From assembly GCF_020966775.1 (NCBI RefSeq), contig NZ_JAJKFV010000029.1, positions 1,109,001-1,173,000 of the forward strand: a stretch of DNA of 64,000 bases, in the 5' to 3' direction. This DNA comes from Rhodopirellula halodulae. Lineage in GTDB: Bacteria > Planctomycetota > Planctomycetia > Pirellulales > Pirellulaceae. Position 1 is the first letter of the stretch; the number at the start of each line of letters is the position of its first letter. Of this stretch, positions 7,701 through 55,347 are shown one piece after another. Under the pieces are notes generated by a model. The model saw nothing but the letters and a program-made list of their open reading frames with translations. It searched no databases and was not told the origin of the DNA. The position numbers and the translations under genes are program-made.

Positions 7701-10700
7701 CGTTTCGATGTCGCGAGCGATGCGTTCGCGAATTTCTTGGCGGCCTTCTGGCGTGTCGACTTGCGTCTCAGGCAGGATGATCGGCGTGGCGTCGCCCAAG
7801 ACGGTGCCATCACGATCAAACTCAAACACCAAGACATCATTGTCGTTGTTGCTGATCCGGAACGAGTCGCCATCGCTCAGACCACCGGCGTCGATCCCAA
7901 CTTCGGGGACAACCAAGGTCAAGGTCTCGGGCAAGAACAACTGGTAGCCCGATTCGAATTCGAAGACGACGGTGCCGCCATCGGAATCGGTGATGCGAAC
8001 TTGGTCGCCATCATTCACTTCGCTCGGATCAGGAGCGACGATCACGCTGCGATCGCGGTTGTTGAGCGAGATGCTGTAAGCATTGCCCTCTCGCCAGACT
8101 CCGGCCAGTGGTGTGAGCGTGATCAGGTTGCTGGTCTCGTCGTAATCGAAGGTGTAGTCGATGCCCTCGGTCAACAACTTTTCGTTTTCGAAGACAGCGA
8201 CGTTGGCACCCACGGGACGCAGGCCATCAATCCCAGCGACCACCACGGTGTCGTCGTCAATGCCGATTCCGGTGAATGGGTTGGACGAATCGCCCGTGTC
8301 ACGCAACTGAATGGTGAAGTTCTGTTGGTTGCCACCGGTCAGACGCAAGAAGCTGTCCGCCGCATCGCCGTCACGACCTTCCGAGTCGTTGTCCAATGGA
8401 TCCTGCAGCGTCGCCACGGGACCGTTGAAATCGGCCAGTTCGATCGCACCACGGTCGATGAACAGGCTGCCGCCGATACCGGATGGAGGCGCGGCCAAAT
8501 CGTTGTCAGCACGCAGCACACCGTTGCCGTCGCGGGTCGGTGCGAGAATGTTGCTGGTCCCCAGACCAACGCTTTCTTTCACGCCGCCAAACGCATCACG
8601 TTCAACGATCGAGGTGGCACCGGTGTCGATCGCCAATGAGAACAAGGCGGGCACGAAGTTGTCGCCGTCCGCGTTGACGAACAGGACATCGTTGTTGCCA
8701 AGCGTCTCGTTGAAGTCGTCTGTTCCGCCGTTGATATTACTGGGCCCGTTTCGGCCATCCGTCGACAAGCCAACGCCGGCGTTGTTAACGCTGTTGATAT
8801 TCTGCCGGAACAGTGTCGTGGCAGGCTGGTCATGTTGGAACAGGTTGTTGGTGACAACCACTTCGGACGGCTTGGCATGCAAGTCCTGCCCCGTGGAACT
8901 GAACCCGAGGAATTTCGTTTCCTCCATCACGACGCTTTGGTTCAAATTCGACAACACATTATTGATCAATGTGGCGCTGCTGCCACCAGTCAACAACACG
9001 CCGGTTTCGGGCAGTAGTTGATCGAGTTCGGTACCCGGTTGGGGATCCAAACGCAACGGTGTCGTGCCATCTTCCGGCGGAATGATTTCTACTTTCGCAG
9101 CGTTCTTGATCAGTAGGTATTGCTCGGTTGCACCTGCACCCGTGCTCAACGCGGCGGGGCCAACACTGTTGACTTGTCCGATGCGGTCGTGGCCGTATCC
9201 ATATTGGAAGTCTGATCCAGCACCGAATGGGAAAGGAATTCGGAAGTTGAAGTTTTCCAGTCCGGCTGCGCGACCTTCCTCGCCACCGATTGCAGTCGCC
9301 TCGACACGAGTGATTGGACCGGAGGTGGCTCCAATGTCATCGTCGATTGGGCCATTGTTGAATTCATGGTTGGGGAGCGGCGGACTGGTCAGTGTCGAAC
9401 TGTCCGCAAGACCTTCGCCGTTGATTGCGGCCTGCAGTGCTCGCATGATTTCCGAGGTGCGATAGCCGTTATTCGGTTGAACGGGAACATTGACAACCGT
9501 TTCGCCGTTGTCGTTGGTTCTAGCGCCACCAATGGTCCCATCGGTGAACAAGAACCGGATCGAGTTTGTGGTGCCAGGGGCAACGAAGTTGTCGATGCGA
9601 TCTGGGATCTGAGTGATGACGACGGAGGTTCCAACCAAGTCAGCACCGGTGGTTCCCAAGTTGCCCCCATTTCGAGTCAGGACTTGATCATCGATGCTCA
9701 GCACGAAGTCACGTGCAGCGTATGCCTCGATTGCGATCGTATAATCGCCCGTGATGTCGTTGCTTCTGGCTCGGCCTGACAACGCATTTGGGTCGTACTC
9801 ATCGTTGGACTGCAGCGAGACAGCAACGTAGTACGTGCCCTTCGACGTCGCAGTGTAATCCATGAATGGGTCGACCGCACGCAGATTGGGCTGCGTGTCG
9901 TCGGCCGGGTCATCTACATCAGGACCCGGGTCGACGTAGGTGTCTTCCTGCGTCGGATCGGTTGCAGTTTCCAAGTGCGTCGGTGCAACACCGGATCCGT
10001 TCGATGCCACCATGACTCCATTGGAATCGAACAGCCGCAGAACCAAGTCGGGGCCTTCAGGGATGTCTAGGGCAAGGTCCTCGGCCAAGGTGTCGATATC
10101 GACGGTCAGACGGTCTCCTTCACGAAGTTCAACCTCGTAGAAGTCCACATCTTGCTGAGCGGTCAACAACGTGTCGCCGTTGCCGATGGTGCCGTTCGTG
10201 ATGTAAGCACCGTTGTGAGCTTGGCCGACCTTCGTGTCGCGAGCACCACTGATCAGATCGTCGCCATCCACCCCGTTGATAATCGCGGCTTGTGAAAACT
10301 GAGACTCCGTGCCGTCCTGTCCGTAGATCGTATTGTTAACGATCCGCGAGAACGGTTGAGGAGCTTCAGCAACCGCAGCCTGACTAGCGGTGAACGGGTT
10401 GAGTCGGTTGCCCTTCGCAAACGAGGTGTCGAAGTAGACGCCGCTGACGCCTTCGAGAAAGACAGTTGGGCTTGGGAACGAAATGTCGCTGAGATAGCGG
10501 TTCTCCTCGAGCTCGCTACCGTTCACAATCGACGGCCCAATAGTCGGCTCGACCAGTTGCACCAAGTCATTCGTTACCAGAATGCTTCCCTGAATGGCTT
10601 GGTAGATCGCCATCATCACTTCGTGACGCGTGTGGGCGTAATCACGGTTGTTGTAACCCACGAAGGTACGACGGTAGAAAATAGGCACGTGCCCATCAAC

Positions 10701-13700
10701 ATGTCCATCGCCACCGTCCTCGGTACTTCCATCGACACTCGGATCGCCGGAGATGTCGTCGAACTCGAAGGTCACACGAGTACCGGCGGCATCGATCGTC
10801 ATGGTCAAACCATCGCTGATCAAATCGCCAAATCCGAGGTCACCGATGAAGTCGCCGATCGAGAAGGAGTCGATCATCCATGGACGAGACTCACCATCGA
10901 CCTTGATGCCTGTGTAGCCCGCACTATCGATCGTGTTGTTGACGATCGATACCGAAGGCGCCAAACCACCGACCACGGAGTTGTTCAGCGTCGGCAGGTT
11001 GCGGACGCTACCTGGCGTCGTGTTACCGATTGGTGGTTGCTGCAGATACTCGTTTTCGTCACCGAAGAAAAAGTCGGTATTGTTGAACCCGAAGAAGTTT
11101 CCAAGGTCCAATGCGAACTGCGAACGAGTTTTGATGTCTTGTGGGTCGACACCTCGGTCACCGGGTTCACTCCAGATACCAATCGCGTGCACGTCGCTGA
11201 TCTTATTGGAGTCGATGAAAACCTGATCTTGGCGGCGTTGGACATTGGTGTCACCGATCGCATTGCTGTAAATCGCTGGCAAGCGGAATGGCGTGCCAGC
11301 AGGAACGATGGGTTCTGATGCATCCGGAACGTCGGCGGCACTATCGACTTTATAGAAATCGCCTACAACCGAGTCGGATAGCGCGATTCGAATGTCGTTG
11401 TTTCCACCGATAAGATCACCCGACGAATCGGTTGCAGTGATGGGAACTAAAGCTTGAACCGCAGGCAGGTTGAAGGCGGTTCGCATGCGTTCCGCGACCT
11501 CAATTTGTGTAGTCACACCGCTGATGTCGATTGGGATATTACCAGCGACCACTGAACCTGTGCTGTTGAACTCAAACGTGACACTACGGACGTTGTCCGA
11601 CATCGAGAATGTGTCACCATCGCTGATTTGCGAAGGGTGGGGTGCAACGATCGTCATCGTCCGTGCCAATCGATCGTTGGTATCGAACGTCGTGGTCGGC
11701 GTTTGAATCGTTGCCGAAGTTGTGGTTGTGTAGTCCTGACCAGGGCGGATTTCCAACTGGTATTCGCCCAGCACCGATTGCGACGCACCAGTGAATCCGG
11801 TCCGTCCAGATGCTGCTCCCACAACCATTTCGCCACGCTCGGCAAAGCCGACAATGAAGTTGTCCAGATACAGACCTTCGCCGCCAAATACAGGGCCGGT
11901 ACCAGCGGCCAAGTCGGTGTCGTACTCGAATCGAATCACCACGTTGGTGTCGCCAGCGAATTGACCCAAGTCCAGGCGTGCTTGGTACCAATTTTCCGCT
12001 GCGTCTTGTTGCAGCAATTCACCGTTGGTTCCGGCAATACCGGCCGCGTTGCCAGCCAAGACGGTGTCGCCTTGTTGATCGCTGCGAGCAATGACTCGAA
12101 CTTCATCGTTGCCGATGTCGCTCAGCAGATAATCGAAGTACAGGTGAGGTTGGTCTGCATCGCTGTAGCCCGACAAGTCGAACGCAACGCTGTCCAAGTC
12201 GCCGCGAATTTCAGATCGATCGAAATACAGCGATTGGTTGTTCGGATCGCCACCGTTGACCACGTGGTTCTCAACCGACACGTTCAGTTCATACGTGCCC
12301 TGCTGTGGGCGGTCGTCAACGTCCAGCGAGAAGACCTGCGTATCCGGATCGTACGCGGTGTCTTCTGGCGAAACGGCGACGTAGTAGACACCCGCTTGCA
12401 AGAACGTTTCGATGTATGGGTCATCTGAGAACAGGCTCAACGCGTTCCCGAGACTGCCTTCCGCACCATCGCTGGTTGGTGAGAAACGGTTGGTTGCGAT
12501 AACCGTCCCAAAGGCATCCAGTAGCTGCAGTTTTAGGTCGACACTATCGCTCTCGAAGTCCTCGATATCCGGGTCGATGTCGATGCCACCGAAACCCGGG
12601 TTGGCGTCATACGCGTATGGGATCACGCCGTTGTCAATGTCGAGGATCACTCGCGAGCCATCAACGGGAACCACAAACTGATAAACATCGACCACCTCGT
12701 TGATGGTCGTGCCCAGCACCTTCGTGTGTGGGATCTGTTGTGAAGTGTTGGTTCCAAATGTGTTGCCCACATTCGGGTCGTCGTTCAGGCTCCAACCCAG
12801 GCCGGCCTCGAGATCATCCGCCGTCAGCAACGAATTGTTGGTTTCGGTTTCGAACGTGATGCTGTCAGGGAACAAGTCCACATTGCGAGAACCGTTGAAG
12901 GTTTGTTTCGCGTTGTGCCCCACGTCGCGTGCACGATTGAGCGTCGTTGACCATCCGAACGGTAACACACTGGTGTCGATGAAGAATGGCTCGATTGGAG
13001 CATCCGCTGTCGTCTGGATCGAGTTGGCAATCTGGTCGTCAACAATTCGCAAAATGGAATCGATGGGTTCCAACCGGACCAATGGGTCGGACAGGACATC
13101 AGGTGTCGTTCCCTCGCCTGTGACAGCGACGTAGTAGGTTCCTGCTCCACCGGGCATCGCAATCGGACCGATGTAAGGGTCGCCCGAATCGATGCTACCG
13201 CCTTCCAGCAAGTCAATCGGATCGTCACCCGCTAGCGTACGGTCTTCTAGAATGTTGCTGTCGTTGCCAACCAATACCAAACGTGGCTGAGCATCACCGT
13301 CTTCACCGTCTGGATCGTAGAAGACTGACAACATGGTATCAGGACGATTGAAGCCATCGGCATAGTCGATGTCGAAGATCAAAGTGTCTCGGCTGACGGC
13401 ACCCTGTGAGCCCAGCACGTCGATTTGGTAGTGGTCGATGTCAGACAGATCGTCTAACGCACCGCCGACGCTGATCACACCGTTGCGACTGGCCAAGGTG
13501 TTTCCGAGATACTGAGCACGTTGACCTGGCGTATTAAAACTGGTGACAGCGATGTCATTGCTCGAAGCGTTGCCGAGTTGCTCATTCTCTTGAGCTTCGC
13601 CCAACAGTGGTGAGTTGGCCATTGCACCGCGGACATGGATTCCGTGGTTGGCGTAGCGAATATCAGCGAAACGAACCATGCTTCCGCTGAACTCTTGCTC

Positions 13701-16700
13701 TTCACGCAAGCGAACTTGGAAACGATATCCGCCTCGGGTCAAACCGCCTTCGGCGTCGTCTGGGTTCACCGAGGCACTGCGGACTCGGATGAAGTAACTC
13801 GACGAATTACCAACGGGACCGGGCAACGTGATGCGGAGGCCCGCGTCGCGTGGGTTGACGGTGTCGTAGTCCATGAACCCATCGAAGTTTGCATTGGCTT
13901 GCAGAGGACCCGCGAGGCCTTCTGCACTTGGATCCAAAATGTCAACTTCGGCATCGCCATTGAGTTCGTCGAATGAGTTGTCACTGCGAGCGATGACGGT
14001 CCCATTGGGATCAAGAACTTCGAGGACGGAGTCCAGCGTGAACGAGGTGTGGTCCAAGTCCACCCAAATCTGGGTTCCAGCTTCCGCGGTGAAGGCATAC
14101 GTGTCGATGTCGTCGGCTTGCGAGAGGAAACCTTCGACTTCAAAGCCCAATCGGTTTTCTTCGTCGCTGTAAAGCTCGTTTGGTGCCAGCGTGCCCAGAG
14201 CTTGTGCCGTGACGACCGATCCATTCAGGCCGGGGCTGATCTCCGACTTCAACTCGCGTTCGAGGATGAATTCGATGTTGGTGAAGTTCGAGTTCTCATC
14301 GAACAAAACACTTCGCCAATCGTTCGAGTCCGGACGGCTCGAGAACGAATCACCATTGGTGTCCAAGAATGCCGTGCCATCGGGCATCAAGCCAGCACCG
14401 ACGGTATCGTCAGCAATGCTGGTCAAGACAACCGGCGATCCCGGCATCCCGATGATTTGAACTGTTCCGCCGATACGGTCATCGATGTCGCCGACGGTAC
14501 CCGTCGCGGTCAGGCCGGTTCCGCTTGTGGGGCTGAACGCCGTTCCCGAACCGGACAACTTGACGACCAAACTCTCCTCGGCGCGACTGAACAATCGCAG
14601 GCCACCGCTGCTGTGCAGGTTGCCGACTTCGATGCTGTCAAACAGCATGTGCACGATATCAGTGTCATCCCAAATGCTTTCCGTGGTGAGCTGGCCACCG
14701 CGAATTTCGAGGCCGCTGAGTTGACGTTCCGCAGCGGCACCGTTGGCGACCACTTCGTATCGGTTGAGTCGGATCAACGGGCCGTAGTTGTCATCCAGCT
14801 CCGAGAAGTTGTCGACGGAACCCGTTTGGCGACCTAAGTCCACCACGCGTTCCGCGGTCATCGAGTTGCTATCGATGTCGATGATGCTGCCGCGGTTATC
14901 GACAAATTCATTGCCAACGATGATTGGCTGGCTGCCACGGACGTGAATCGTGGATGGGGTGACACCAGGACGACCGAATCGGCCGACCGCACCCGCACCG
15001 TCTTGTCCGTCATCGTTGAACTCGAATCGTGAATTCACAACGCGGGCGGTGGCTTGTTGCAATTGCAGCGGCACAAAGCCGCGGCTCTCACCGCCGGGGA
15101 TCAAACTCACGCCACCGGCGTAGGCGATCGTGGCGGAATCCAAACTGACATGAGCATTCGGGCTGGCGTAGATGCCGGACCAGTCGCCTCGTTCAGGATC
15201 AAAAACGGTGCCCGTCGCGTTGTCATTGCTGGTGTCGAATGTGCCACCGGCACCAAAGCGATCGTCCAGCAAGCTGGTGAAGACAACCGGACGCTGAGCG
15301 GTGCCTTCGGCGAGTAGCTGCGTGCCGTGGCCAAGTTCAATGCGTGCACCGTTGAGTTTGACAATCAAACCTGGGTCGATCGTCAACGACGCATCCAGAC
15401 GACCGCGAACGCCGTCCAGATCCGTGTCGAGAAGCGTGCTGTTGTCGACCGTTTGGCTGCCATCATCGACGAAGGTTTGACGCGTCGAATCTAATTGTGC
15501 GACGAACACGTAGTCGCTGGTTCCCGGGACGCTGCGGTACAAGCGACGCGCAACGAAGTTGCTGACATCACCAATCGCGGGAAGGTTGCGAAGTTCAATG
15601 GAGGAACCGCTGAGCGTGGCGGGCACCACAAAGTCGCCACTTGGATCGCTCGGAGCCGATTCAAAACCGAATACGTCGACAAACGTCATGCGGTAGTTGA
15701 ACGTGGCGTCTTGCAGATCGCCGCCCAGATTCACGTTGCCCGCGGAACTGGTCAGGTCAGGACGAATGCCATCCTCGATGCTGCCGCCGGGAGTGCCAAC
15801 CACGGACAGGTTTTCGGCCAGGTAGTGAACCACGTCGATGTCGTCGAAGCGACCGGAAACCGTCAACTCACGAGGCGGCTGATTCGCAGTCGTTTGAACT
15901 CGAATGAACAGACCGTTGATGCTGTTGTCGAGCAGTTGATTGGAGTAGATGTCCGGACCAATGCGATCGTAGTCGGCAATGAAGCGTCCAGCGACTTGGA
16001 ATTTCGGACCTTGGAACGTGGTTTCCTCGAACGTGTCTGGTGAGGCGCTGATCGCCGCATCGGCACTTTGGGTGATTTCGTTGAACGAGATGGTTGGGCG
16101 ACGTCCAATCATGGTGATTGGATTGACCAACTGTTGAACCGCATCGATCAACAGGTTGCTGCCACCGCCGAAGCGAATTTCCGCATGGTTCACGCGGTCC
16201 ATGAAGATCCCTTGATCTTCCAGCGAGCTGCGTCCCTGAACGGAATCAAAATCACTGCGATAGACGATCCCGCCCCAATCTCCGGGGCCGGCTGCTGGGG
16301 CGATTCCCGCGGCGGAGGCGTCCACACCACGATCACGCATGCTGGTGAGGATCACGCTCCCGTTGGTGTAAGCCGAGAGTGCGTCGGACTCGTCCGTCAG
16401 CAACGTTGTGGTTGGTTCGAAGTTCGGGTCGGTGAGGTCGTTGTCCGTGGACAGTTGGACCAAGCGAGGCGTGCCGAGAACTTGCAGCAACGATCCACTA
16501 CGGTCGATCTGCAAACTGCTGCTACCGACGCCAATGCGTGCGCTGCGGAACTTCAAGGCGGCACCCGCGTCGATCACGGCGGTGACGCCCTTCGGGATTT
16601 CCATGTTGCGTCCGTCTTCCAGGACGCGACCGCCGGTTTCCGTGATGCCGAACTGATAGCTGAAGTTATCCGCTTCCGTCTCGATGTCGCCGTCCACGCC

Positions 16701-45628: not shown

Positions 45629-46597
45629 TCATCGCGACGGTTGCGTTGGACCCGTGTGGACAAATTCGATCATTTGCTCGCAGACCCGATTCACCAACCA
45701 TTTACGGTCTTCGCAGAGCATTGCGACGTGGTCCATTTCAGGCCGAAAATCCACCGTGGCATGATTCTTCCAACGCACACCGTGAAGCATGTCGAAAAAC
45801 TGATTCTCGTAGTTGTAGTATTCCGAAACGCCGCCGGTGTAGACCAGATGCAGGCGACATCCTCGATCGACCAGCCTTTGAAATTCCCGCAACGCAATTT
45901 TTCGCGACGGGAATTCGCGAAGGTCGGTGCCCATCGGAATGCTGCGGTACGCGGGGGCCGAGTTTTTGCTGCGACGCGGCAACCGTCGACCGAGCATTCG
46001 TTTCCATGCGCGTGCGGACACCAAACGCGATGCGTAGTGGCCAACTCGATGAATCCAAAAGCGACCAGTTCGATAACCACATGCGTCCATGGCAACCACA
46101 CCGCTGACGCGAGGATCCCGAACGGCGGCGTGCAGCGAATCGTCGGCTCCTGAACACAGGCCAAACAAGATGACTTGTTCAATTCCGTGCTCTCGTTGCA
46201 ACCAGTCGATCGCCTGTCGAATCTCGTCGGTGGCTCGTTCGATCGATTGACCGCGGGATCCGACCGGCAAACTTTCCCCGATTCCCGATAGGTCAAAACG
46301 GAAGGAGGCGAGACCTCGACAGCCAAGCGTTCTCGCCAGATCGACATGCAGCCGAAATGGGCCGACATGATGCAGCATGCCAGGAGTGACAAAGATGGCG
46401 GCCGTTTTCGCATCGATGGATTGCGCCGGTTGATGATAGACGCCCACCAAGTGGTGATGACTCCCAAAAACCACCGCCTGTTCGGCGAATGTCTCACCGC
46501 CACGTGTGGTCGGCACGTCGGTCGACTTGGTTGCGGCAACCGTCGCGGGTGTTGTGGTGCTGGCGAAGGAGGCAGGAAAAAGATCGGTGGTACTCAT
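45629..46597 (-). CDS. Alpha/beta hydrolase with Cys nucleophile, last gene of the EctB-NRPS cluster
   Basis: 322 residues. The nucleophile elbow reads GLCSG (residues 146-150), which puts Cys148 where most alpha/beta hydrolases carry Ser, as in dienelactone hydrolase. The oxyanion segment FVTPGMLHHVGPFR and the strand FRFDLSGIGES are standard. The closing His is probably in MDHVAML. The family shape recalls 'hydrolase 1, exosortase A system-associated'. The gene overlaps the NRPS-like gene by 4 bases and has its own strong RBS inside that gene. Thioester release or transfer of the carrier-bound product is the likely role (inference). Confidence 0.85.
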   Translation of the reverse strand: MSTTDLFPASFASTTTPATVAATKSTDVPTTRGGETFAEQAVVFGSHHHLVGVYHQPAQSIDAKTAAIFVTPGMLHHVGPFRLHVDLARTLGCRGLASFRFDLSGIGESLPVGSRGQSIERATDEIRQAIDWLQREHGIEQVILFGLCSGADDSLHAAVRDPRVSGVVAMDACGYRTGRFWIHRVGHYASRLVSARAWKRMLGRRLPRRSKNSAPAYRSIPMGTDLREFPSRKIALREFQRLVDRGCRLHLVYTGGVSEYYNYENQFFDMLHGVRWKNHATVDFRPEMDHVAMLCEDRKWLVNRVCEQMIEFVHTGPTQPSR

Positions 46598-49356
46598 GTG
46601 GTCACCTCCTGATTGGATGAACAGGTTTCACTGACTAGCAGCGAACTGATTTTTCGCATCGCGTCGGGCGAGGCAAACGCCGATTCGTTCCAGTGAGCGA
46701 CATGCCACCCAATCTCATCACTCAAAGGCACTACCGTTTTGGACTCAAGGTGTGTTGCATCGATGCCTTCCATCGATGCGTAGTCTTGGCTGAGCAAAAA
46801 TGTGCACGACGAATGGTCGGTCGATATGTCGGGAGCAAGCTTGAGTTCCTCCAGTTGCCGTCGTACGACATGGTTGAGTCGTACGCCGTAGGCTTGATCA
46901 ATCGAGCCCGCCAATCGAGGTTGTGAGAATCTGGATCCATTGACCAGAGTTGCCGAATGCAGATCATCCAATCGCCGCAAGAACGTTTGGCCATTCACGA
47001 CTGGGTCCCAAAGCAATCGTTGATCGACCATCGGGTGCTGGCATTGACTTGCAAGCGTGGCACCCAGCCGGATGCCCAACAGTGTCACCGGAGTGGTGGA
47101 ATGACGTTGCGTCATCCACTGGACCGCGTCGTGAATGTTTCGTTTCATCACCTGCGGAGCGGCCTCCACCGCGGTGCCATGTGAATTTCCGGTTCCCGCG
47201 TAATCAAATCGAAGCACGTTCCATCCCTGTTGCGTCAGATGCACCGACAGTTGTTGTAAGTTTCGATAGGAACGTTGGTATTCGTGTCCGATCGAATGGC
47301 AAATCACGACAGATCGATTTGCGACCGGCTGGTTGGCCGGCGGTGTGTAGTGAACTCCGAATAGGTCGTGCGAGCCGCTTCGAAAGAAGAATGCTTCGAC
47401 CTGAGGTAGCCGGGCCCGCTGTGCTTCCACTTGCGAAGAGTCGTTGTTTGCCGAGCAAGGTTGGTCACGCATCAATGATTGAAGATGGCGAGCCGCCAAT
47501 TCAATCGTTGGATTCGCGAAAAAGTCTCGGACAGGCAGTTCGATACCAAGCTGGTCTTTGATCTTGGCCACAACCTGCGTCACCAACAGCGAACTACCGC
47601 CAAGCAAGAAAAAATCGTCGTCGATACCCATTTCTGGGATTTGCAGCACCGTGCACCAAATGTCGTGCAAGCGATGCTCTAGCTCAGTTCGCGGTGCCAC
47701 CAAACGGTTGTCTCGTGCCACCACCGCCGCATGATGGTCGGGCAGTTGAGACCGATCGATCTTGCCATTGATGGTCTTGGGGAAACGATCCAGCAACACA
47801 AATCGCGATGGGATCATGTAGGCCGGCAATTCCTCACGCAGTTGTTCGCGTAGATCATGTGCGATTTGCGATCGCACCGCGTCAGACGATTGTTCGTAAG
47901 AAACTTGCGAATCACTGTCGAAACACAACGCAACGAATGCGATCAAGTTGGTTTGTCCATCGATCTTGTCGGCACGAACGAGTGCTTCGCTGACGTTCGT
48001 GATGGAGGTCAACGCGGCTTCAATTTCACCCGGCTCGATTCGGTACGAACCCAATTTGATTTGATGGTCCAAGCGTCCGCCGAAGTCGATGTTTCCGTCG
48101 GGCATCCATCGAGCAACGTCGCCTGTGCGATAGAGTCGACGTTGGACGCCAGTGTTATCTGTGTGCTGTACGAAGGCAGCCTCGGTCAAGTCTGGTCGAT
48201 TCAGATAGCCGTCCGCGAGTGCTGGGCCGGCTAAAAAGAGTTGTCCCGTTTCCCCCATCGCGACTTCTCGCATGTCGGAATCGAGAATCAACGCTTCGTA
48301 GCCAGGAAGAGGCTTTCCAATCGGCATGTTGGCATCCGAAAACTCACCGTCGGGAATGAACACCGTCGCTGAGACGGTGGCTTCTGTCGGGCCGTATGCA
48401 TTGCACCAGAGCACTTCTGATTCACAGATGGAAAGCCACCGTTGATAGTGATCGACACTGATCTTTTCGCCCGTCACGACCATCAGACGAATGCAATCGG
48501 GGACTTTCGCGTCGGTTGCGATCATCAAATCAACCCACTCGTGCCAGTAGGCGGTAGCCAGGTGAATGGCGGTGATTTGATGTTGCTGGATCAAGTGCGA
48601 AAGTTCGTTGACTGAATCGGCCCGCTCCAACGGACGCACGACGACGCAGCTCCCCACCAGCAACGGAGGAAAAATCTCCTCCATGGCGATGTCGAACGTG
48701 AGTGTTGAGAACTGAAGCGTCCGATCGTTTGGGAGCAAGCGGTAAATGTCGCAGTCAGCCAAGCAATAGGTGGTCAATGCGGTATGGTTGATCAACACGC
48801 CTTTGGGGCGGCCAGTCGACCCCGAGGTGTACATCACATAGGCGAGGTGATCGCTGTCCAAATCCGGAAAGTCACCGCGAAAAAAAGTGGTGCTCGAAAG
48901 GTTGCCGGTGACTAGGCGGTCGGCATCCAACCAAAGCCGTTGTTGATCTCCATCAACCTGGGGTGCATGGTCGTGGTCGACACTTCCGGGGAATAGCGAT
49001 CGGTGATGTGCGTGTCCAATCAACGTGCGGATATCAGCGTCATCGACCATGTACTGCAAGCGGTCGGCCGGATAGTCGGGATCCAGCGGAACAAAGGCGG
49101 CTCCGGCCAAATGGGTGCCAAGCATCGAAGCAATCGCGATGGGTGTTCGATCCAAACACATTCCGACGCGGTCCCCCGGGCAAACGCCAACCTCTTTCAA
49201 TTGCTCCGCGACCAAACAGCTTTGGACACGGAGTTCGCGGTAGGTCCATTCCTGGTCTCCTTGGACCACGGCAATTCGGTCCGGTGTCGCATCGCATTGT
49301 TGCCAGAAAAGGTCAATGAAGGGACGTGCCGGAGGAGGTGTTGTTGCGGCACTCAC
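46594..49356 (-). CDS. NRPS-like protein: adenylation domain, carrier domain, nucleophile-less alpha/beta-hydrolase domain
   Basis: 920 residues, GTG start overlapping the aminotransferase stop. The adenylation domain (about 10-540) shows YTSGSTGRPKG (176-186), NAYGPTE (319-325), YRTGD, GRLDHQIKLGSYRIEPGEIE (427-446) and the catalytic Lys in NGKIDR (532). The carrier domain (about 555-630) has DDFFLLGGSSL with Ser589 as the phosphopantetheine site. The C-terminal domain (about 650-900) has an alpha/beta-hydrolase fold, but its elbow is GIRLG (761-765), with Arg763 at the nucleophile position. This GxRLGA form is known from 'hydrolase 2, exosortase A system-associated'. My manual reading of the substrate code is DIEHVTAVSK, which matches nothing I can name. 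There is no condensation domain, so it loads and holds one amino acid. Confidence 0.92.
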   Translation of the reverse strand: MSAATTPPPARPFIDLFWQQCDATPDRIAVVQGDQEWTYRELRVQSCLVAEQLKEVGVCPGDRVGMCLDRTPIAIASMLGTHLAGAAFVPLDPDYPADRLQYMVDDADIRTLIGHAHHRSLFPGSVDHDHAPQVDGDQQRLWLDADRLVTGNLSSTTFFRGDFPDLDSDHLAYVMYTSGSTGRPKGVLINHTALTTYCLADCDIYRLLPNDRTLQFSTLTFDIAMEEIFPPLLVGSCVVVRPLERADSVNELSHLIQQHQITAIHLATAYWHEWVDLMIATDAKVPDCIRLMVVTGEKISVDHYQRWLSICESEVLWCNAYGPTEATVSATVFIPDGEFSDANMPIGKPLPGYEALILDSDMREVAMGETGQLFLAGPALADGYLNRPDLTEAAFVQHTDNTGVQRRLYRTGDVARWMPDGNIDFGGRLDHQIKLGSYRIEPGEIEAALTSITNVSEALVRADKIDGQTNLIAFVALCFDSDSQVSYEQSSDAVRSQIAHDLREQLREELPAYMIPSRFVLLDRFPKTINGKIDRSQLPDHHAAVVARDNRLVAPRTELEHRLHDIWCTVLQIPEMGIDDDFFLLGGSSLLVTQVVAKIKDQLGIELPVRDFFANPTIELAARHLQSLMRDQPCSANNDSSQVEAQRARLPQVEAFFFRSGSHDLFGVHYTPPANQPVANRSVVICHSIGHEYQRSYRNLQQLSVHLTQQGWNVLRFDYAGTGNSHGTAVEAAPQVMKRNIHDAVQWMTQRHSTTPVTLLGIRLGATLASQCQHPMVDQRLLWDPVVNGQTFLRRLDDLHSATLVNGSRFSQPRLAGSIDQAYGVRLNHVVRRQLEELKLAPDISTDHSSCTFLLSQDYASMEGIDATHLESKTVVPLSDEIGWHVAHWNESAFASPDAMRKISSLLVSETCSSNQEVTT
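46602..46610 (-). promoter_or_regulatory. Strong ribosome binding site for the hydrolase gene
   Basis: AGGAGGTGA, a full anti-SD match, sits inside the last codons of the NRPS-like gene, 4 bases before the ATG at 46597. Strong SD sites are rare in this window, so this one suggests that high or coupled output of the hydrolase matters. Confidence 0.85.
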
Positions 49357-50720
49357 GAGATGACCTCACCATTGCAATCAACGGGGTTTGCAGCCTTCTT
49401 CGAGGCAGACGCTGTTTTGGGCGAGGTGCCACTTGCCATCGCTTGACGAAGGCTTTGACCGAATCGTTGAAGTCCTTCCTCCAGCAAAGGCATAGGGATG
49501 TTCAACGCCGGCATGAACTTCAAGACCTCATCCTGTGATCCCGAAGCTTCCAACAGCAAGCCATTCTTGAATGCGACATCGATGATGCGTCGAGCCAGCT
49601 TGCCGTCGCCCACATCCAGGCCCCAGATCATTCCTCGACCGCGCACATCCCAGTTCGGCTGAGGCGACTGCCAAAGCAGCGACGAGAGAAATTCCCGCAG
49701 CACATCGCTGCGTTGCTGGATGCCACGGACGAAGTCATCGTTTTGCCAGTTCTGAAGGACTTCCGTTGCCGCGATGAAAGCCAAGTTGTTGCCACGGAAG
49801 GTGCCGGTATGTTGTCCAGGCTGCCAAACATCGCATTCAGGACGCATGAGCAAAACGGAGAGTGGCAATCCTCCGCCGATGGATTTGGAGAGGCAAACCA
49901 TGTCAGGTTGCAGTCCCACTCTTTCGAAGCTGAAGAACTCCCCGGTTCTTCCATTGCCAACTTGGATGTCGTCGACGATCAGCAACACATCGTGTTCGCG
50001 ACACAGCGATTGAACCCGTTGCAACCAAGGGTCACTGGCAACGTGGATGCCGCCTTCACCTTGGACGGTTTCCAGAATCACCGCCGCGGGAAGTGGCAAA
50101 CCACTGCTGCGATCGGACAACATTTTTTCGAGCAAAATGGTGGTGTCAAAATCACCAAGGTATCCATCGAATGGCAGGAAGCTGACGTTGTTGTGCGAAC
50201 CGAAGTATTCGCTGTGGTAGCTTTGATTGCCAGTCACGGACAGTGAACCCAGCGAGTGCCCGTGGTATCCGTTCGTGAAGGCGACGATGTGAGAACGCTG
50301 CGTCCGCTTCTTGGCCAATTTCAGTGCCGCCTCAACCGCATTGGTGCCGGTTGGACCTGTGAACTGAAGCTTGTAGTCCATTGATCGTGGTTGCAGGATC
50401 ACCTCGTCGAACGTCCGGAGGAACCGTTCTTTGGCCTGCGTCATCATGTCGAGCGAGTGAAGAATGCCGTCGCTAGACACATAGTCAATGAGGGCTCGCT
50501 TCACCTCGGGGGGATTGTGCCCATAGTTCAATGATCCCGCGCCGCAGAAGAAGTCGATCAGTTCTCGTCCATCGTTGGTTCGCATGACGGAACCCACGGC
50601 GGAAGTGAACACGTTCGGGAAGAGTCGGCTGTACCCACGGACTTTTGATTCCAAACGGTCAAAGGTTGCGGTGGGAACCGATGTTTGGAAAGACTGGCTC
50701 AAGCGATGACCTGCGATCAA
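49353..50720 (-). CDS. Diaminobutyrate-2-oxoglutarate aminotransferase, EctB-like
   Basis: 455 residues; the frame opens at a TTG (50720) and no ATG precedes the conserved start TFDRLESKVRGYSR, so the start is uncertain. It is a class III PLP aminotransferase. EctB-type hallmarks are TGPTGTNAVEAALKLAKK, GYHGHSLGSLS, DDIQVGNGRTGEFFSFE and the PLP lysine in CLSKSIGGGLP. EctB converts aspartate semialdehyde to L-2,4-diaminobutyrate. Neither ectA nor ectC is nearby, so ectoine is not the product here. Coupling to the adenylation-carrier gene suggests diaminobutyrate, or a derivative, feeds that enzyme. RhbA-type siderophore enzymes are close relatives, which is another reading. Confidence 0.92.
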   Translation of the reverse strand: MIAGHRLSQSFQTSVPTATFDRLESKVRGYSRLFPNVFTSAVGSVMRTNDGRELIDFFCGAGSLNYGHNPPEVKRALIDYVSSDGILHSLDMMTQAKERFLRTFDEVILQPRSMDYKLQFTGPTGTNAVEAALKLAKKRTQRSHIVAFTNGYHGHSLGSLSVTGNQSYHSEYFGSHNNVSFLPFDGYLGDFDTTILLEKMLSDRSSGLPLPAAVILETVQGEGGIHVASDPWLQRVQSLCREHDVLLIVDDIQVGNGRTGEFFSFERVGLQPDMVCLSKSIGGGLPLSVLLMRPECDVWQPGQHTGTFRGNNLAFIAATEVLQNWQNDDFVRGIQQRSDVLREFLSSLLWQSPQPNWDVRGRGMIWGLDVGDGKLARRIIDVAFKNGLLLEASGSQDEVLKFMPALNIPMPLLEEGLQRFGQSLRQAMASGTSPKTASASKKAANPVDCNGEVIS

Positions 50721-50941: not shown

Positions 50942-51199
50942 TCAATCGTCGCCGGACTTCTGGTCTCGAAACCCCTTGCGGTCTGCTTCGTACTGCTCCG
51001 AATCGGGCAGGTCAATCGCATCTGGTTGTGCGGCTTCGAACAGCCGTTGCAAGAAGGGACGGCACCAACCGCAGCCGGTCCCCGCACCGTAGCACTGCGA
51101 GAGCTCACTTGCTCGGCGGGGTTTCTGAACGCGAATGAACTGCTCGACCTTGCGCCGCGACACATGAAAGCACAGGCAAAGGTCTTCTTCGGGCTTCAT
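50942..51199 (-). CDS. Bfd-like [2Fe-2S] ferredoxin
   Basis: 85 residues from the ATG at 51199. The cluster ligands C8-x-C10 and C43-x2-C46 in GAGTGCGWC match the Fer2_BFD family (bacterioferritin-associated ferredoxin and related NirB/CopZ domains). One more Cys (C36) is present. Bfd reduces bacterioferritin to release iron. No bacterioferritin gene is nearby. It lies 57 bases after the beta-barrel gene and 221 bases before the EctB-like gene on the same strand, so an iron or redox role in either unit is possible. It is too short for an easy start decision, but the Cys pattern is clear. Confidence 0.85.
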   Translation of the reverse strand: MKPEEDLCLCFHVSRRKVEQFIRVQKPRRASELSQCYGAGTGCGWCRPFLQRLFEAAQPDAIDLPDSEQYEADRKGFRDQKSGDD

Positions 51200-51256
51200 G
51201 AGAGATGCAGTTGAAGAGGTCGAGACGCGGAAGAGGATCTGCAATCAACGATGAGA

Positions 51257-52978
51257 TCAGAACTTCCAACGATACTCCATTCTCGTTCCGTACACGTCAG
51301 GAAGATCGCTTCGCCAGCCGTGCATCACGTCGAATCGCAACAGTGTGCTGTTGGAAACCGGGAATTGATAACGTGCCCCCAATCCGAACTGATCGCCTTG
51401 AACAAACGGATTGGAATCGCCGTGTTCGGTCAGATAGGAAGCTTCCAAAAGCAACTGCCGGTCCAATTGGTTTCCGATCAAATCAATTCCGATGGAGCCA
51501 CCGGCGGTATCAAAAGCATTCGGATCCAATGTGGCAAACCCGTTCAGGCCATCCGTGTCAAAGTTGATCCCGGTGTTTCGAAGGATACCACCACTCCCGC
51601 CTGCTCGTGCCACGGATTGAGGACGTCCCCAACCAAAGAAGAAGTTGGCGTACGGGACCACGGTCAATGGCGACGACGTGATCCAGCTATTTTCCCACAG
51701 AAACAAACCACCATCTGCGGTGACGTCGGCGTCGGAAAGGTTTTGGCCCGTGTTGATGATCAATCGCAATGAGTTGCTGATGCGATCGAAGTAGCGTTTC
51801 GTGAAGCTGACGGTCATGTTGTGATAGCTGCGACGCGAATCGTCGCGGTCACGCAGGTAAGCGTAGCCTGCCTCGATGTACCCGTTGTAGGCTTCGATAA
51901 AACACGCCGTGCCGAAGACTTGAGCTGCATGGTCGTCGGAACCAAATGCTGCGCTGTCAATTCGATCGATCGCAGCAAAGAAGGTCCAGTCGAAATTGGC
52001 CCAGTTCAACGCGCGACTGTGACGTGCCGGGAGTGCAAATGCGGCACCGGTCACAGCGTCTTCCATCCAAATGCCGTTTTGGAAAAGCAGCGGAATCAAA
52101 CCAATGGTCACCGGCAATTCCGCGGGCGAGGATTTACCGTGAAAGCCTCCCCACATCGCACCCAGGTCACCTTCGAAGAACGCGGTGACAAAGTTCGGAT
52201 CAAAGACGCCTTGGTAGTCGAATTTACCATCCTGAAAATCGACCCGAGTGAATTGCCCATTGCGATCCAAGGGGCCAATGAATCCGTGGAAACGCTCCGA
52301 ATCCGTCAAGCGTAGATCGAGATCCAGGTTCAATCGCGATGCCCAGTTGTCGGTGCGTCCAGCGGCATTGCGGCCGGTGATGATTCCGGAACGCATGTCA
52401 CCGTAGAGGTAGAACTGCGGCCGAGCCAAATTGGTTGGTCCGAACCAGTTTTTACCGCGAGGCGTGATGCCATTGCCGTAGAAGGTCCGCCCCCATTCGA
52501 TCCAGGGACTCTGCGTGGGAACCGCCGCTTTCGCGTCATAAACCCACTGTTCGCGACTGCCGTCGTGCCAATCCGATTGATGCGGCAATGGCGTTGGCGA
52601 GAAGTCGTGAGCGAAATGCTTGAGACTACCCATCCCTGCTGCGTGAGCGAAATCCGCTGCGGTTTCCTCTTGCAATACGGAATGGCCGGTCAGAGACGGA
52701 GTGCCCAAAGAGGCGCTCTTCGAGGCAGTCGTTAAGCCAGGAAAAACTGCTGTTTCCGGGATGGATGTTTGCGCTGGATGGACAGAGATCGCTGGAGTTG
52801 GCTGTTTCTGTGTGACCGCTGCGGCGGTGGCGGCCGATGGATCCGGTGCAACGATTGGTAAACGTTGGGGACGGCGATGCGGTGATTGCGCACTCAGTGG
52901 TGTACCGACCAACCCAATCAGGCTGCCGGCCAAGACTGCAATCCAGTGCCACGGCTTTGAGCTGCGAATGAACCGCAT
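51257..52978 (-). CDS. Putative outer-membrane beta-barrel protein (porin-like), paired with the cytochrome
   Basis: 573 residues from the ATG at 52978, only 2 bases after the cytochrome stop codon. It has a signal peptide (WIAVLAGSLIGLVGTPLSAQ), then a Pro/Ala-rich linker. The rest shows alternating short strands rich in Tyr, Trp and Phe (WASRLNLDLDLRLTDSERFHGFIG; EAYNGYIEAGYAYLRDRDD; LRFDVMHGWRSDL). The last residue is Phe (MEYRWKF), the usual C-terminal signal of barrel proteins. No known porin family motif is seen. Its tight link to a multiheme cytochrome suggests a porin-cytochrome conduit, but an independent porin is possible. Confidence 0.8.
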   Translation of the reverse strand: MRFIRSSKPWHWIAVLAGSLIGLVGTPLSAQSPHRRPQRLPIVAPDPSAATAAAVTQKQPTPAISVHPAQTSIPETAVFPGLTTASKSASLGTPSLTGHSVLQEETAADFAHAAGMGSLKHFAHDFSPTPLPHQSDWHDGSREQWVYDAKAAVPTQSPWIEWGRTFYGNGITPRGKNWFGPTNLARPQFYLYGDMRSGIITGRNAAGRTDNWASRLNLDLDLRLTDSERFHGFIGPLDRNGQFTRVDFQDGKFDYQGVFDPNFVTAFFEGDLGAMWGGFHGKSSPAELPVTIGLIPLLFQNGIWMEDAVTGAAFALPARHSRALNWANFDWTFFAAIDRIDSAAFGSDDHAAQVFGTACFIEAYNGYIEAGYAYLRDRDDSRRSYHNMTVSFTKRYFDRISNSLRLIINTGQNLSDADVTADGGLFLWENSWITSSPLTVVPYANFFFGWGRPQSVARAGGSGGILRNTGINFDTDGLNGFATLDPNAFDTAGGSIGIDLIGNQLDRQLLLEASYLTEHGDSNPFVQGDQFGLGARYQFPVSNSTLLRFDVMHGWRSDLPDVYGTRMEYRWKF

Positions 52979-52980
52979 GA

Positions 52981-55107
52981 TCAACGCACCATGAACGTGT
53001 GCGAGCCATGGCAGATGTCAATCATCCGCTCGTTCATTCGTCGAATCATATCGGGTGTGCTATTGATCTGACGCATGAAGTACATCGGTTCGGTGCGGCT
53101 GCGCATCCGGACGCTCAATCGATAAGGTCCAGGAACACGAAATGCCTCCGCGGGAATCGTGTACTTGGCGATGCGGTGATCCAGTGGCGGGATGCTGTGC
53201 GCTTCCATGCGAATCAGCGGCGGATGGTTCAGCACGCTGATGGGCAGAGCCCCCGGACGCAGAAAGGCGAGTTGATCCAGACTGAAGTTCAGGGGCAGGG
53301 CCGCTTCACGGTCGGTGCCACGAACGTTGTTGATCAAAAACTTGGTTTGCAGGTTGAACAGGTTCTTGTCACGCGGAATCCGGCCTTTGGCAACTTCGAC
53401 GCTGTGCATATCACACAGGTCGGCGTTGGCGTCCAAGTAGCCCGTTTCCCAAACCCGTTGTCCGTTGGGATTGATCAACACGGCATTGAGCCATAGCTGC
53501 GGCTGGGCACCCAGGGAACCGGTTGGCAAGTTGTGGCCAGTGCTGATGTTGTCGACTCGGTAGCCGAGTTTCAGCGGCATGCCAATTTGGGGCTTGGTGT
53601 AGAACATCGGGTCGCTAACGTGTGCTCCTGCTTCCAGCGTCATCGCGGAATAGCCACGCTTTTCGTTCATCTTCGCGATGTTTGTATCGATCACTTTTCT
53701 CGCGTCACGACGATCGTCGGCGTTGTCCCAAGGTTTGGGGAAGTGCATGCCGTCGGGAACATTCTTTTCAAACGCTTCCGTTCCCCAACCCGCGCGATCA
53801 TCAAACGTCAGCCACTGGCGAGGCGTGAATGCTTTGGCCTTGGGGTTGTGTGGGAAAATTCCGGGATGTGCGATGGAATATCCCGGACCCCAGAACGTAT
53901 GGTTGGAATGTTTGCGAGGTTCTCCGTAGGGCTTGCCCGACAGCTCAGCCACATGGCATTCCTCGTAGCCTTCGGCTTTTCCAGGCACCGCGCCCATGTG
54001 GCAATCTTGGCAGGAAATGCCCGCCTTCGCCGCCGGACCACTTCGGTATTGTGCGTGAACCACCTCCAGCCAAATGCCGGGGTGCACGGCGACTTGATGG
54101 CACGAGATGCAAATGTCCGTCTTCGTCAGCGGTTCGAAGAAGTAAGAACCATTGTGAATGGCTTGGCCGGTGCCCTTCTGCGACGCATCCGTTTTGAGTT
54201 TGTTCTTTTCCGCGTTTGCCAGAGCTTTCGCCAAGCCCGCGCCGTTTCCACCGCTGCCGACGGGAGCGTGAATGTTGCCCGGTTCGATGCGACGGTCGCC
54301 GTTGCTGCGGCCGTAGTGCTCGTTGATACGGTGGCAACTGATGCAGGTCACGCCCTCACGCGCAACGGGTGGTTGATCCAGAACGCTGACCGTGCGAGGA
54401 ATGTTCAGTTGGGTTGCGACGGGCGAATGACATCGCATGCAAAAATGGCCAACTGTCCCTTCAGTCAATTCCGTCATGGCCTGTTCGAATCGCTGGAACA
54501 TCGGGGAGACCGATGCGTAGGCGTGGCTGCTCACGCTCCATTCGTCATAGTGCTTGGGGTGGCATGCTCGACAGGATTCGGCTGAGGGATAGCAATCCTC
54601 CGTCCAAAGGTCTTCGTGAGGGTCCTTCTTACCAGCATCGTCAGGTGATTTCGCGGGAGGCGAAATTGGTTCCTCGCTGCCCAGCCCCGCAAGTGGATCA
54701 TCGCCGAAGTCTCCCAGCGGGTCGACATCGGCCGCCAATTGCCCGGCGTCGTTGGCGGACACCGAATGCATGGGAACTTGGTTGCCGAACAGATGATGAA
54801 TCGATGGTTCCACACCGCCCGTGGGGTGACGGTAGGCGGAAGGCGTCGGTTGAGAGGTTGGTCGATGGGCCGGTTCTGCCGTGGCGATTCGGGCCGCGGG
54901 TTGTCGTCCGTAGAGTCGGTTGCCAACGCCCAATAACTCGCCGACCTGCAGCAACTCTTCATCGCTCATCGATGGTTGCCCACGCCATGCCGAGCCGTCG
55001 TCCGCGGTGACGGACGGGGGCTGCGAGAGGATGCCTGCTATGCCAATCGCGGCAAACAGCGACATCAAACCATTGGTGATCGTTTCACGACGAGGAATGA
55101 TGGGCAT
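52981..55107 (-). CDS. Multiheme c-type cytochrome with five CxxCH motifs
   Basis: 708 residues from the ATG at 55107, chosen because it opens a signal peptide (GLMSLFAAIGIAGILS). Five heme sites lie at about residues 178-370: CRACH, CMRCH, CISCH, CISCH and CQDCH, in an arrangement like cytochrome c554 relatives. Several conserved His could be distal ligands. The preceding 120 residues are Pro/Gly/Asp-rich and may be a linker. The C-terminal 300 residues are heme-free and beta-rich (MPLKLGYRVDNISTGHNLPTGSLGAQ). The protein should be periplasmic or surface-exposed and carry electrons. The barrel gene follows after 2 bases. Confidence 0.92.
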   Translation of the reverse strand: MPIIPRRETITNGLMSLFAAIGIAGILSQPPSVTADDGSAWRGQPSMSDEELLQVGELLGVGNRLYGRQPAARIATAEPAHRPTSQPTPSAYRHPTGGVEPSIHHLFGNQVPMHSVSANDAGQLAADVDPLGDFGDDPLAGLGSEEPISPPAKSPDDAGKKDPHEDLWTEDCYPSAESCRACHPKHYDEWSVSSHAYASVSPMFQRFEQAMTELTEGTVGHFCMRCHSPVATQLNIPRTVSVLDQPPVAREGVTCISCHRINEHYGRSNGDRRIEPGNIHAPVGSGGNGAGLAKALANAEKNKLKTDASQKGTGQAIHNGSYFFEPLTKTDICISCHQVAVHPGIWLEVVHAQYRSGPAAKAGISCQDCHMGAVPGKAEGYEECHVAELSGKPYGEPRKHSNHTFWGPGYSIAHPGIFPHNPKAKAFTPRQWLTFDDRAGWGTEAFEKNVPDGMHFPKPWDNADDRRDARKVIDTNIAKMNEKRGYSAMTLEAGAHVSDPMFYTKPQIGMPLKLGYRVDNISTGHNLPTGSLGAQPQLWLNAVLINPNGQRVWETGYLDANADLCDMHSVEVAKGRIPRDKNLFNLQTKFLINNVRGTDREAALPLNFSLDQLAFLRPGALPISVLNHPPLIRMEAHSIPPLDHRIAKYTIPAEAFRVPGPYRLSVRMRSRTEPMYFMRQINSTPDMIRRMNERMIDICHGSHTFMVR

Positions 55108-55347
55108 CACCGTGTGAACCTGAACAACCCGAAAGAGCCTGGACAATCGGCACAATGCCGACAAACACACTGCCTCCATCGTCTGGTGCTCAGCGGATTG
55201 TCCAGAAGCATCCGCGGGACGCGACCAAAGGACTCAATCGATAAACTTTGCCACCTTTGAGCATGCGCCGAAACGCATCCCGGTTTCACTGGCAATGTTT
55301 CACGATGGGGCGGCCCTCGGGCTGAATTCGCTATCGGCGAACGTGCT

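Follow-up and report, generated by a model that had tools for sequence, protein, structure and literature searches.

The planctomycete Rhodopirellula halodulae carries a compact unit of three genes within a stretch of 64,000 nucleotides (contig NZ_JAJKFV010000029.1, positions 1,109,001 to 1,173,000; hereafter the window). All three open reading frames (ORFs) lie on the minus strand and, according to the ORF list, each overlaps the next by exactly 4 bases. The first encodes an EctB-type L-2,4-diaminobutyrate (DAB) transaminase; the second a protein in which an adenylation domain (A), a thiolation or carrier domain (T) and an alpha/beta-hydrolase domain (H2) are joined; the third a free alpha/beta hydrolase (H1). 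Substrate enzyme, carrier and both hydrolases are all contained within 5.1 kb (Table 1). This is the layout described by an earlier interpretation made from the letters alone, here called the sequence-only reading, and both the ORF coordinates and the family scores agree with it. In particular, EctB exceeds the TIGR02407 cut-off of 552.2 with a score of 619.6 bits, and the profile built from seven EctBs of such cassettes matches the solved EctB 6rl5 at 568.6 bits. The exact start of EctB is uncertain, as the TTG codon sits some residues ahead of the conserved start.

Table 1. Features of the three-gene unit, in positions of the window.
Feature	Position	Strand	Remarks
EctB-type L-2,4-diaminobutyrate transaminase (pyridoxal phosphate enzyme, class III), first gene of the unit	49353-50720	-	455 aa, TTG start; TIGR02407, PF00202
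A-T-H2 protein	46594-49356	-	920 aa, GTG start; AMP-binding, AMP-binding_C, PP-binding, Hydrolase_4
Adenylation domain, aa 1-545 of the 920-aa protein	47722-49356	-	TIGR01733, 395.4 bits (cut-off 317.4); PF00501/PF13193
Thiolation (carrier) domain, GGSS motif	47437-47721	-	PF00550, 62.8 bits, aa 562-625
H2, alpha/beta-hydrolase domain lacking a nucleophile (elbow residue Arg763; Glu692)	46597-47436	-	PF12146; best NCBIfam match TIGR03101
H1, free alpha/beta hydrolase, Cys148 at the elbow (GLCSGADD) and His290	45629-46597	-	322 aa, ATG start; Hydrolase_4; best NCBIfam match TIGR03100

The three genes travel together. A search with H1 through 296 genomes of the same order gave matches in 17, and because the whole set of EctB, A-T-H2 and H1 is found in seven of these 17, the window included, the cassette is more than a chance co-occurrence. 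When an alignment of the seven H1 proteins was compared with a draw of 397 genomes of the class, 10 matches were obtained at E 1e-30 or better, namely six of the seven cassettes, three places with genes for polyketide synthases (PKS) or non-ribosomal peptide synthetases (NRPS) in genomes G196, G255 and G320, and one match in G208. The same alignment was used to scan the GTDB collection (171 stretches matched, 104 relatives, 80 loci kept); five of the 80 (L050, L052, L054, L056 and L059) duplicate contigs already obtained from the order search (G237, G258, G125, G200 and G279, respectively) and were dropped before counting, and L034 and L035 were dropped from the survey of A domains near H1 as unrelated fused hydrolases. 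The cassette-type A domain is present in 29 loci, the window included. H2 is found in all 29, and EctB adjoins directly upstream, overlapping or at most 140 bases away, in 26; the contig of L064 starts inside the A domain. Carriers, which include isolates such as Rhodopirellula europaea, Rubripirellula obstinata and Neorhodopirellula pilleata, belong to the Pirellulales and to assemblies named Thiotrichaceae, Leucothrix, Granulosicoccaceae and one unnamed proteobacterium; these assemblies we take to be gammaproteobacteria. A, T, H2 and H1 form one single chain in L041, L065 and L073, and also in L063 if a masked stretch inside it is open.

The sequence-only reading had raised the question of whether the homologues always reside in full NRPS clusters. 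This refuting condition did not apply, as in none of the 29 loci did an NRPS partner turn up next to the cassette. An association with NRPS exists nonetheless: more distant H2/H1 pairs end PKS/NRPS lines, and two variants (L047, 2188-7882, and L048, 3-5203), which have a T-H2 protein and H1 but lack EctB and the usual A domain, adjoin what are read from the sequence as a divergently oriented NRPS protein with the pocket DIWEVTADDK and a ketoacyl-synthase-III-like protein. The window itself had been described as free of a condensation domain, ectA, ectC and an NRPS partner, and this description held: Pfam gave no Condensation match in the 920-aa protein, and tblastn, run with one query each, found no match to ectA, ectC, ectD, a condensation domain, a PKS, the exosortase XrtU or an exosortase-A-like decarboxylase (query from L039) in the window and 28 related loci. 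In these searches the ect queries took their names from a reading of one ectABC-type locus, the positive controls consisted solely of queries matching themselves, and sensitivity was limited for the condensation domain, whose query missed the NRPS protein of L047, whose N-terminal part reads as a partial condensation domain. No published account of the cassette or its pocket was found in a literature search limited to open-licence PubMed Central (PMC) papers; each domain is of a known kind, and it is the combination, its spread as a unit and the likely DAB carrier that are absent from the papers searched.

The EctB of the cassette is distinct from that of ectoine biosynthesis. In the same 296 genomes, a search with EctB (E 1e-80 or better) hit 28 places, spread over 27 genomes: seven are the cassettes, one is a lone member of the cassette clade (G208), 19 have an EctA- or EctC-like neighbour, as judged by size and sequence reading, and one (G192, locus L146) was left out of the classification. 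Both kinds of EctB occur in genome G279, with one copy of each. In a 46-row tree, 26 cassette EctBs stand apart from 19 ectABC-type EctBs with a branch support of 100/100, and the G208 protein falls on the cassette side. In other words, cassette EctBs resemble the ectoine enzyme in their TIGR02407 score and in the match to 6rl5, and differ from it by their own side of the tree and by ectA and ectC genes not being found alongside. A 2026 survey of ectoine genes in Planctomycetota reports 23 genomes with ectC, with ectA and ectB immediately adjacent in all of them (PMC13342039). The ectoine synthase family PF06339 has no match in the window's genome, but it has none in any of the 14 control genomes either. 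A remnant of an ectoine locus was rejected as a reading, because the cassette EctBs form a clade of their own that keeps company with A-T-H2 in more than one phylum. The EctBs of L049, L051 and L053 nest among planctomycete rows (13-row set, support 100/99), a position in the tree which suggests horizontal transfer. As a separate observation, the lone EctB of G208 (L148, 258-1661) has a long branch and lies on a 4.7-kb contig without A-T-H2; it is perhaps a relic.

The substrate of the A domain can be approached through its binding pocket. An alignment of the A domains gave the residues at ten pocket positions, which were chosen according to the motif positions of GrsA. For many PKS/NRPS modules this read-out gives DILQLG..WK, a pattern assigned to glycine in two papers (PMC5466765, PMC12283262), and the mapping works because this published pattern is recovered. 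The window protein has the pocket DIEHVTAVSK (D222, I223, E226, H265, V293, T295, A320, V328, S329 and K532), and the form D[IV]EH[VIL]TAV[ST]K is found in 29/29 cassette A domains, one of which is readable at 8 of 10 positions. The two residues forming a diamino-acid signature are constant, namely Glu at position 3 in 29/29 and Asp at position 1 in the 28/28 that are readable there. For comparison, the ornithine-activating PosA has a crystallographically tested pocket, DMEHNGTVSK, in which the first Asp contacts the alpha-amine and the position-3 Glu the side-chain amine, mutants of either being without activity (PMC10522769), and a lysine pocket in a pyoverdine synthetase is given as DAEDHGTVTK in a further paper (PMC12195549). 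The pocket in the window shares 6/10 positions with the ornithine pocket, and relatives with Thr at position 9 share 5/10.

Owing to this resemblance to the tested ornithine pocket and to the lysine pocket, the cassette pocket fits a diamino acid. The code alone does not say which; as EctB adjoins, DAB would be the natural choice, and it very probably forms on the carrier. The carrier-bound diaminobutyryl unit of the sequence-only reading is thus supported, both by the EctB family and by the constancy of a pocket comparable with that of PosA (PMC10522769). Ser589 of the GGSS motif, which we take to be the phosphopantetheine site from the motif of the family, is invariant in a 7-row alignment.

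A diamino acid other than DAB (ornithine, lysine or diaminopropionate) is an improbable substrate of the A domain, with EctB then only supplying or sharing a precursor, and there are nevertheless points in favour of such a load and against DAB. Besides the positions shared with the ornithine pocket, position 2 is Ile or Val in the cassette, whereas PMC10522769 reports it as Phe in the synthetases of poly-diaminopropionate (poly-DAP) and poly-DAB, Met for ornithine and Ala for lysine, so that chain length is not fixed by the code. In addition, the pocket for (beta-hydroxylated) DAB in a modular NRPS, DVWQMIGDDK (PMC12283262), looks unlike that of the cassette, and EctB was not found in the available flank of L065 and L073. 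On the other hand, a dedicated EctB clade stands immediately before the A domain in 26/29 loci, which speaks against another substrate.

The architecture downstream of the A domain separates the cassette from known single-module systems. Cationic homo-poly-amino-acid synthetases (PosA and those of epsilon-poly-lysine, poly-DAB and poly-DAP) are alike in their A-T architecture and in a pocket of the form D-x-E-x-x-x-x-V-[ST]-K; after T, however, they have a membrane-embedded synthetase part (PMC10522769), whereas in the cassette T is followed, by family matches and not by transmembrane prediction, by a Hydrolase_4/TIGR03101-like domain up to the protein end. The cassette does not pass as an ectoine locus, a modular NRPS or a homopolymer synthetase. 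Single-module NRPS-like enzymes of the A-T-thioesterase class combine A, T and an alpha/beta-hydrolase domain in one chain, as the cassette protein does. The fused hydrolase of the cassette, in contrast, matches Pfam Hydrolase_4 rather than Thioesterase, carries Arg in place of the nucleophile (67/67 H2 domains), and is followed by a second hydrolase of Cys type.

These twin hydrolases have their best matches in two NCBIfam families, both below cut-off: H1 scores 83.4 bits against TIGR03100 (cut-off 168.45) and H2 94.4 bits against TIGR03101 (cut-off 202.75). In an alignment of 79 H1 domains the elbow Cys is conserved in 79/79 and the His in 77/79, the former count leaning towards Cys because the collection scan used two motifs, one of which contains it. 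Among 67 H2 domains, which were not selected on Arg, the elbow Arg is present in 67/67, as is the Glu corresponding to Glu692 of the window protein. A joint alignment of H2, H1 and fused chains placed the H2 rows on the H1 half and was dropped. An AlphaFold2 model of H1 built on 26 rows (predicted local distance difference test score, pLDDT, 87.5) places the Cys between strand 104-110 and helix 112-123, counted along the modelled segment, whereas the His comes beyond the final strand. Judged from these conserved residues, H2 looks like a non-catalytic partner and H1 like an acyl-enzyme. It is most improbable that H1 is instead an editing (type II) thioesterase and H2 a vestige, with the loaded carrier serving an unlinked synthetase. 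The 920-aa protein has no condensation domain, so any peptide use of the DAB-loaded T domain must indeed be in trans; yet H2 keeps both Arg and Glu throughout and is never missing from a cassette, which is unlike a vestige, and chains uniting A, T, H2 and H1 exist.

The sequence-only reading had also drawn a parallel with the enzymes associated with exosortase A, that is, a TIGR03098 ligase, a TIGR03099 decarboxylase, an acyl carrier protein (ACP), the TIGR03100 hydrolase 1 and the TIGR03101 hydrolase 2. Of this parallel the kinship of the hydrolases stands and membership does not. The two systems are alike in having an AMP-forming loader, a carrier and a pair of hydrolases whose best matches are the same two families, and in the motifs GLCDGA of H1, containing the Cys, and GLRLGA of H2, both of which also occur in the over-cut-off pair of L030. 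The cassette differs by its NRPS-type A domain, by the fusion of the carrier, by sub-cut-off scores (the ligase of the 920-aa protein reaches 212.7 bits against TIGR03098, cut-off 592.35) and by its pyridoxal phosphate enzyme, the class-III aminotransferase EctB replacing the TIGR03099 decarboxylase; moreover, no exosortase was found alongside. The genome search that the sequence-only reading had called for turned up, as sole exosortase, XrtU on contig C9, the window being on C29, and no exosortase A. This protein scores 268.3 bits against TIGR02602, 166.5 against the XrtU C-terminal model and 96.4 against XrtA (cut-off 208). Its neighbours (L037 1-19901, G000 contig C9) read from the sequence as a chain-length/tyrosine-kinase-type protein of exopolysaccharide synthesis, an asparagine synthase and glycosyltransferases, and no exosortase-A-type enzyme genes were seen in the 20 kb around it. 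Consequently, with ligase and hydrolases below cut-off, the decarboxylase not found and a distant XrtU as the only exosortase, the cassette is not the exosortase-A set.

There is also little likelihood that the cassette is a diverged form of that set, modifying surface proteins or exopolysaccharide together with the genome's exosortase. The best families of H1 and H2 point in this direction, as does an exosortase match in 6/7 cassette genomes. In all six, however, the exosortase lies on another contig than the cassette (a weak argument for fragmented assemblies), G279, which is 91% complete, has the cassette and no exosortase match, and the results on scores, on the surroundings of XrtU and on the XrtU query, unmatched in the 29 cassette loci, are likewise contrary to it. 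What the cassette does share with the exosortase-A set is the twin-hydrolase module, which is also found with an unrelated amino acid:ACP ligase and with PKS/NRPS lines. The literature search found no paper explaining the exosortase-A hydrolases 1 and 2, and the main text of the founding PEP-CTERM/EpsH paper is without the words hydrolase, ligase, decarboxylase and carrier (PMC1569441).

The H2/H1 pair also occurs in other contexts. In L030 the pair is of exosortase-A type and over cut-off (H2 249.6 bits, H1 323.5 bits), with neighbours that read as ACP-like, asparagine-synthase-like and glycosyltransferase-like. Plasmid records matching H1 number 54, two of which were examined. The first, L038 (Azospirillum lipoferum plasmid AZO_p5, 2387-9975), has a fused TIGR03101/TIGR03100-like protein, an ACP and an amino acid:ACP ligase scoring 522 bits (cut-off 357). 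Loci of this class-II aminoacyl-tRNA-synthetase-like ligase (PRK07080) resemble the cassette in that a single amino acid is loaded onto a carrier with a fused H2-H1-like protein nearby, and are unlike it in their unrelated loader and in extra DUF1839, GH2 and acyl-CoA dehydrogenase genes. Specifically, fused H2-H1-like proteins stand near DUF1839-like and acyl-CoA-dehydrogenase-like genes in L038, L031 and L032, with GH2 genes in L038 and L031, and it is possible that these loci represent a separate amino-acid:carrier system common to planctomycetes and Azospirillum. The second plasmid, L039 (Shinella), encodes a 602-aa protein whose C-terminal half is TIGR03100-like, the N-terminal half being unmatched at 1e-10; in the same locus are polysaccharide genes, an ACP, a ligase resembling TIGR03098 (566.8, cut-off 592.35) and a decarboxylase resembling TIGR03099 (413.1, cut-off 478.45).

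Outside the contexts above, the pair most often closes a PKS/NRPS line. H2-H1 pairs lie beside PKS/aminotransferase/NRPS genes in L026, L028, L029 and 20 further loci, and a Gly-type code is found in 23/28 non-cassette loci with a readable A domain near H1, these three included; in L094 and L099 the Gly-type A domain is not the last one. The other five of the 28 comprise three with a code that we take to be of Ser type, L109, which is partly readable, and L116 (DISDITGVWK). Outside this count are the loci with H1 and no readable A domain nearby, together with the 14/91 loci in which ORF calling missed H1 (L024, L030, L038, L039, L061, L077, L082, L088, L103, L104, L105, L107, L112 and L117).

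We propose that the cassette forms a self-contained pathway for a carrier-bound cationic amino acid, with H1 transferring this to an acceptor, a reading to which we assign a probability of about 0.5. EctB would convert aspartate semialdehyde and glutamate into DAB, as expected from its family. The A domain would adenylate DAB, whose alpha-amine is predicted from the pocket to be bound by Asp222 and whose gamma-amine by Glu226, and the A-T part would load it as a thioester on the T domain, presumably activated by a phosphopantetheinyl transferase (PPTase) encoded elsewhere in the genome, where two PF01648 matches are present, one of them in a 264-codon frame. The fused H2, its nucleophile replaced by Arg, may then position the loaded T domain and H1 as a non-catalytic partner. 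Finally, H1 would accept the aminoacyl group on Cys148, with the participation of His290, and hand it on; the acceptor would most likely be a glycan or small molecule whose own synthesis lies outside the operon. EctB action and A-T loading are proposed on families and pocket, the later steps on conservation and context. For the last step, transfer rather than release by H1 is favoured, with slightly less than an even chance. The pathway as a whole is further supported by the H1/H2 relatives that stand beside other amino-acid:carrier loaders (L038 and L039), by the chains that unite A, T, H2 and H1, and by the PPTase, aspartate-kinase-like and polysaccharide flippase genes next to some of the cassettes.

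Several results weigh against this pathway. The acid of the classical triad is not conserved in H1, and the solved structures nearest to its model are feruloyl esterases and lipases. The model of a fused H2-H1 chain (3 rows) had a pLDDT of 39.2 and left the H2/H1 interface without structural support; as this model failed, contact between the two is a matter on which we infer. Furthermore, there is no conserved fourth gene: counting ORFs of at least 90 aa in 29 loci (L047 and L048 included, L073 left aside), the commonest non-cassette neighbour families occur in 3-4/29 loci, so no acceptor gene is kept. Since no acceptor gene travels with the cassette, the chief rival to transfer is release, in which H1, with H2, would free or cyclise the DAB thioester without the help of another gene; the small product might be a diketopiperazine, a short DAB oligomer or the gamma-lactam 3-aminopyrrolidin-2-one. 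Release is a possibility to be held tentatively, and both editing and the exosortase link are less likely than it. It would agree with the esterase and lipase folds nearest to H1 and with the other H2/H1 pairs, which end PKS/NRPS lines, where release is expected, mostly with the glycine code defined from PMC5466765 and PMC12283262. It is harder to reconcile with the use of two proteins, one of them invariably lacking a nucleophile, which exceed the needs of hydrolysis, and with the relatives in polysaccharide-type loci with single-amino-acid carriers (L030 and L039), where freeing the amino acid would be futile.

The surroundings of the cassette vary. Upstream of EctB in the window (50942-55179, minus strand) lie genes for a BFD-type [2Fe-2S] protein, for a 575-aa protein that matches no family and for a protein resembling cytochrome c554, and downstream of H1 there are small ORFs, followed by a gene similar to those of lipid A acyltransferases and by one for an NMT1-type ABC-transporter protein. 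Of nine such flanking genes, used as tblastn queries against the 28 related loci, 9/9 were found around the nearest relative (L040, Rhodopirellula europaea) and 0/9 in the other 27. The comparison of gene neighbourhoods suggested by the sequence-only reading hence gives a cassette recurring as a unit in 29 loci, with flanks that change except in L040. A PPTase gene directly follows H1 in 6/29 loci, in two sequence groups (L022, L055 and L066; L049, L051 and L053), the Pfam assignment PF01648 being confirmed for L022 and L049 only. In one locus of the 29, L045, the gene directly after H1 is aspartate-kinase-like (129.3 bits to TIGR00656, below cut-off) and could feed aspartate semialdehyde. In L067 a polysaccharide flippase gene precedes EctB. 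Two Granulosicoccaceae also have DegT-type aminotransferase genes upstream of the cassette, in L065 (4383-7021) with a DAO-type oxidoreductase and in L067 (3088-5927) with the flippase. Elsewhere in the window, at about 9816-14108 on the minus strand, an open frame of 6170 codons matches PPC (PF04151) three times, and just outside the window start lies another frame, of 7576 codons, that also has a PPC match; both perhaps encode giant secreted proteins.

A first consequence concerns annotation: where ectA and ectC are missing, a gene annotated as EctB is not necessarily a sign of ectoine. By itself the cassette is of moderate interest, which would be higher if it explained the exosortase-A hydrolases: its three genes, for which a substrate can be predicted and which include hydrolase twins of that kind, represent a small test system for them. 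The element that we see in common across the contexts of H2/H1 is an amino acid on a carrier. It is conceivable, though doubtful, that H2/H1 (TIGR03101/TIGR03100 and kin) constitute an unrecognised two-protein aminoacyl-carrier transferase, composed of a Cys-type hydrolase fold and a nucleophile-free Arg/Glu partner, which would here attach diaminobutyrate as a cationic tag. Such a transferase might serve carriers loaded by four kinds of loader, namely the exosortase-A ligase, the aminoacyl-tRNA-synthetase-like amino acid:ACP ligase, the mostly Gly-coded PKS/NRPS lines and the EctB-A-T cassette. If true, the cassette would be its smallest complete example and would offer a handle on exosortase-A chemistry.

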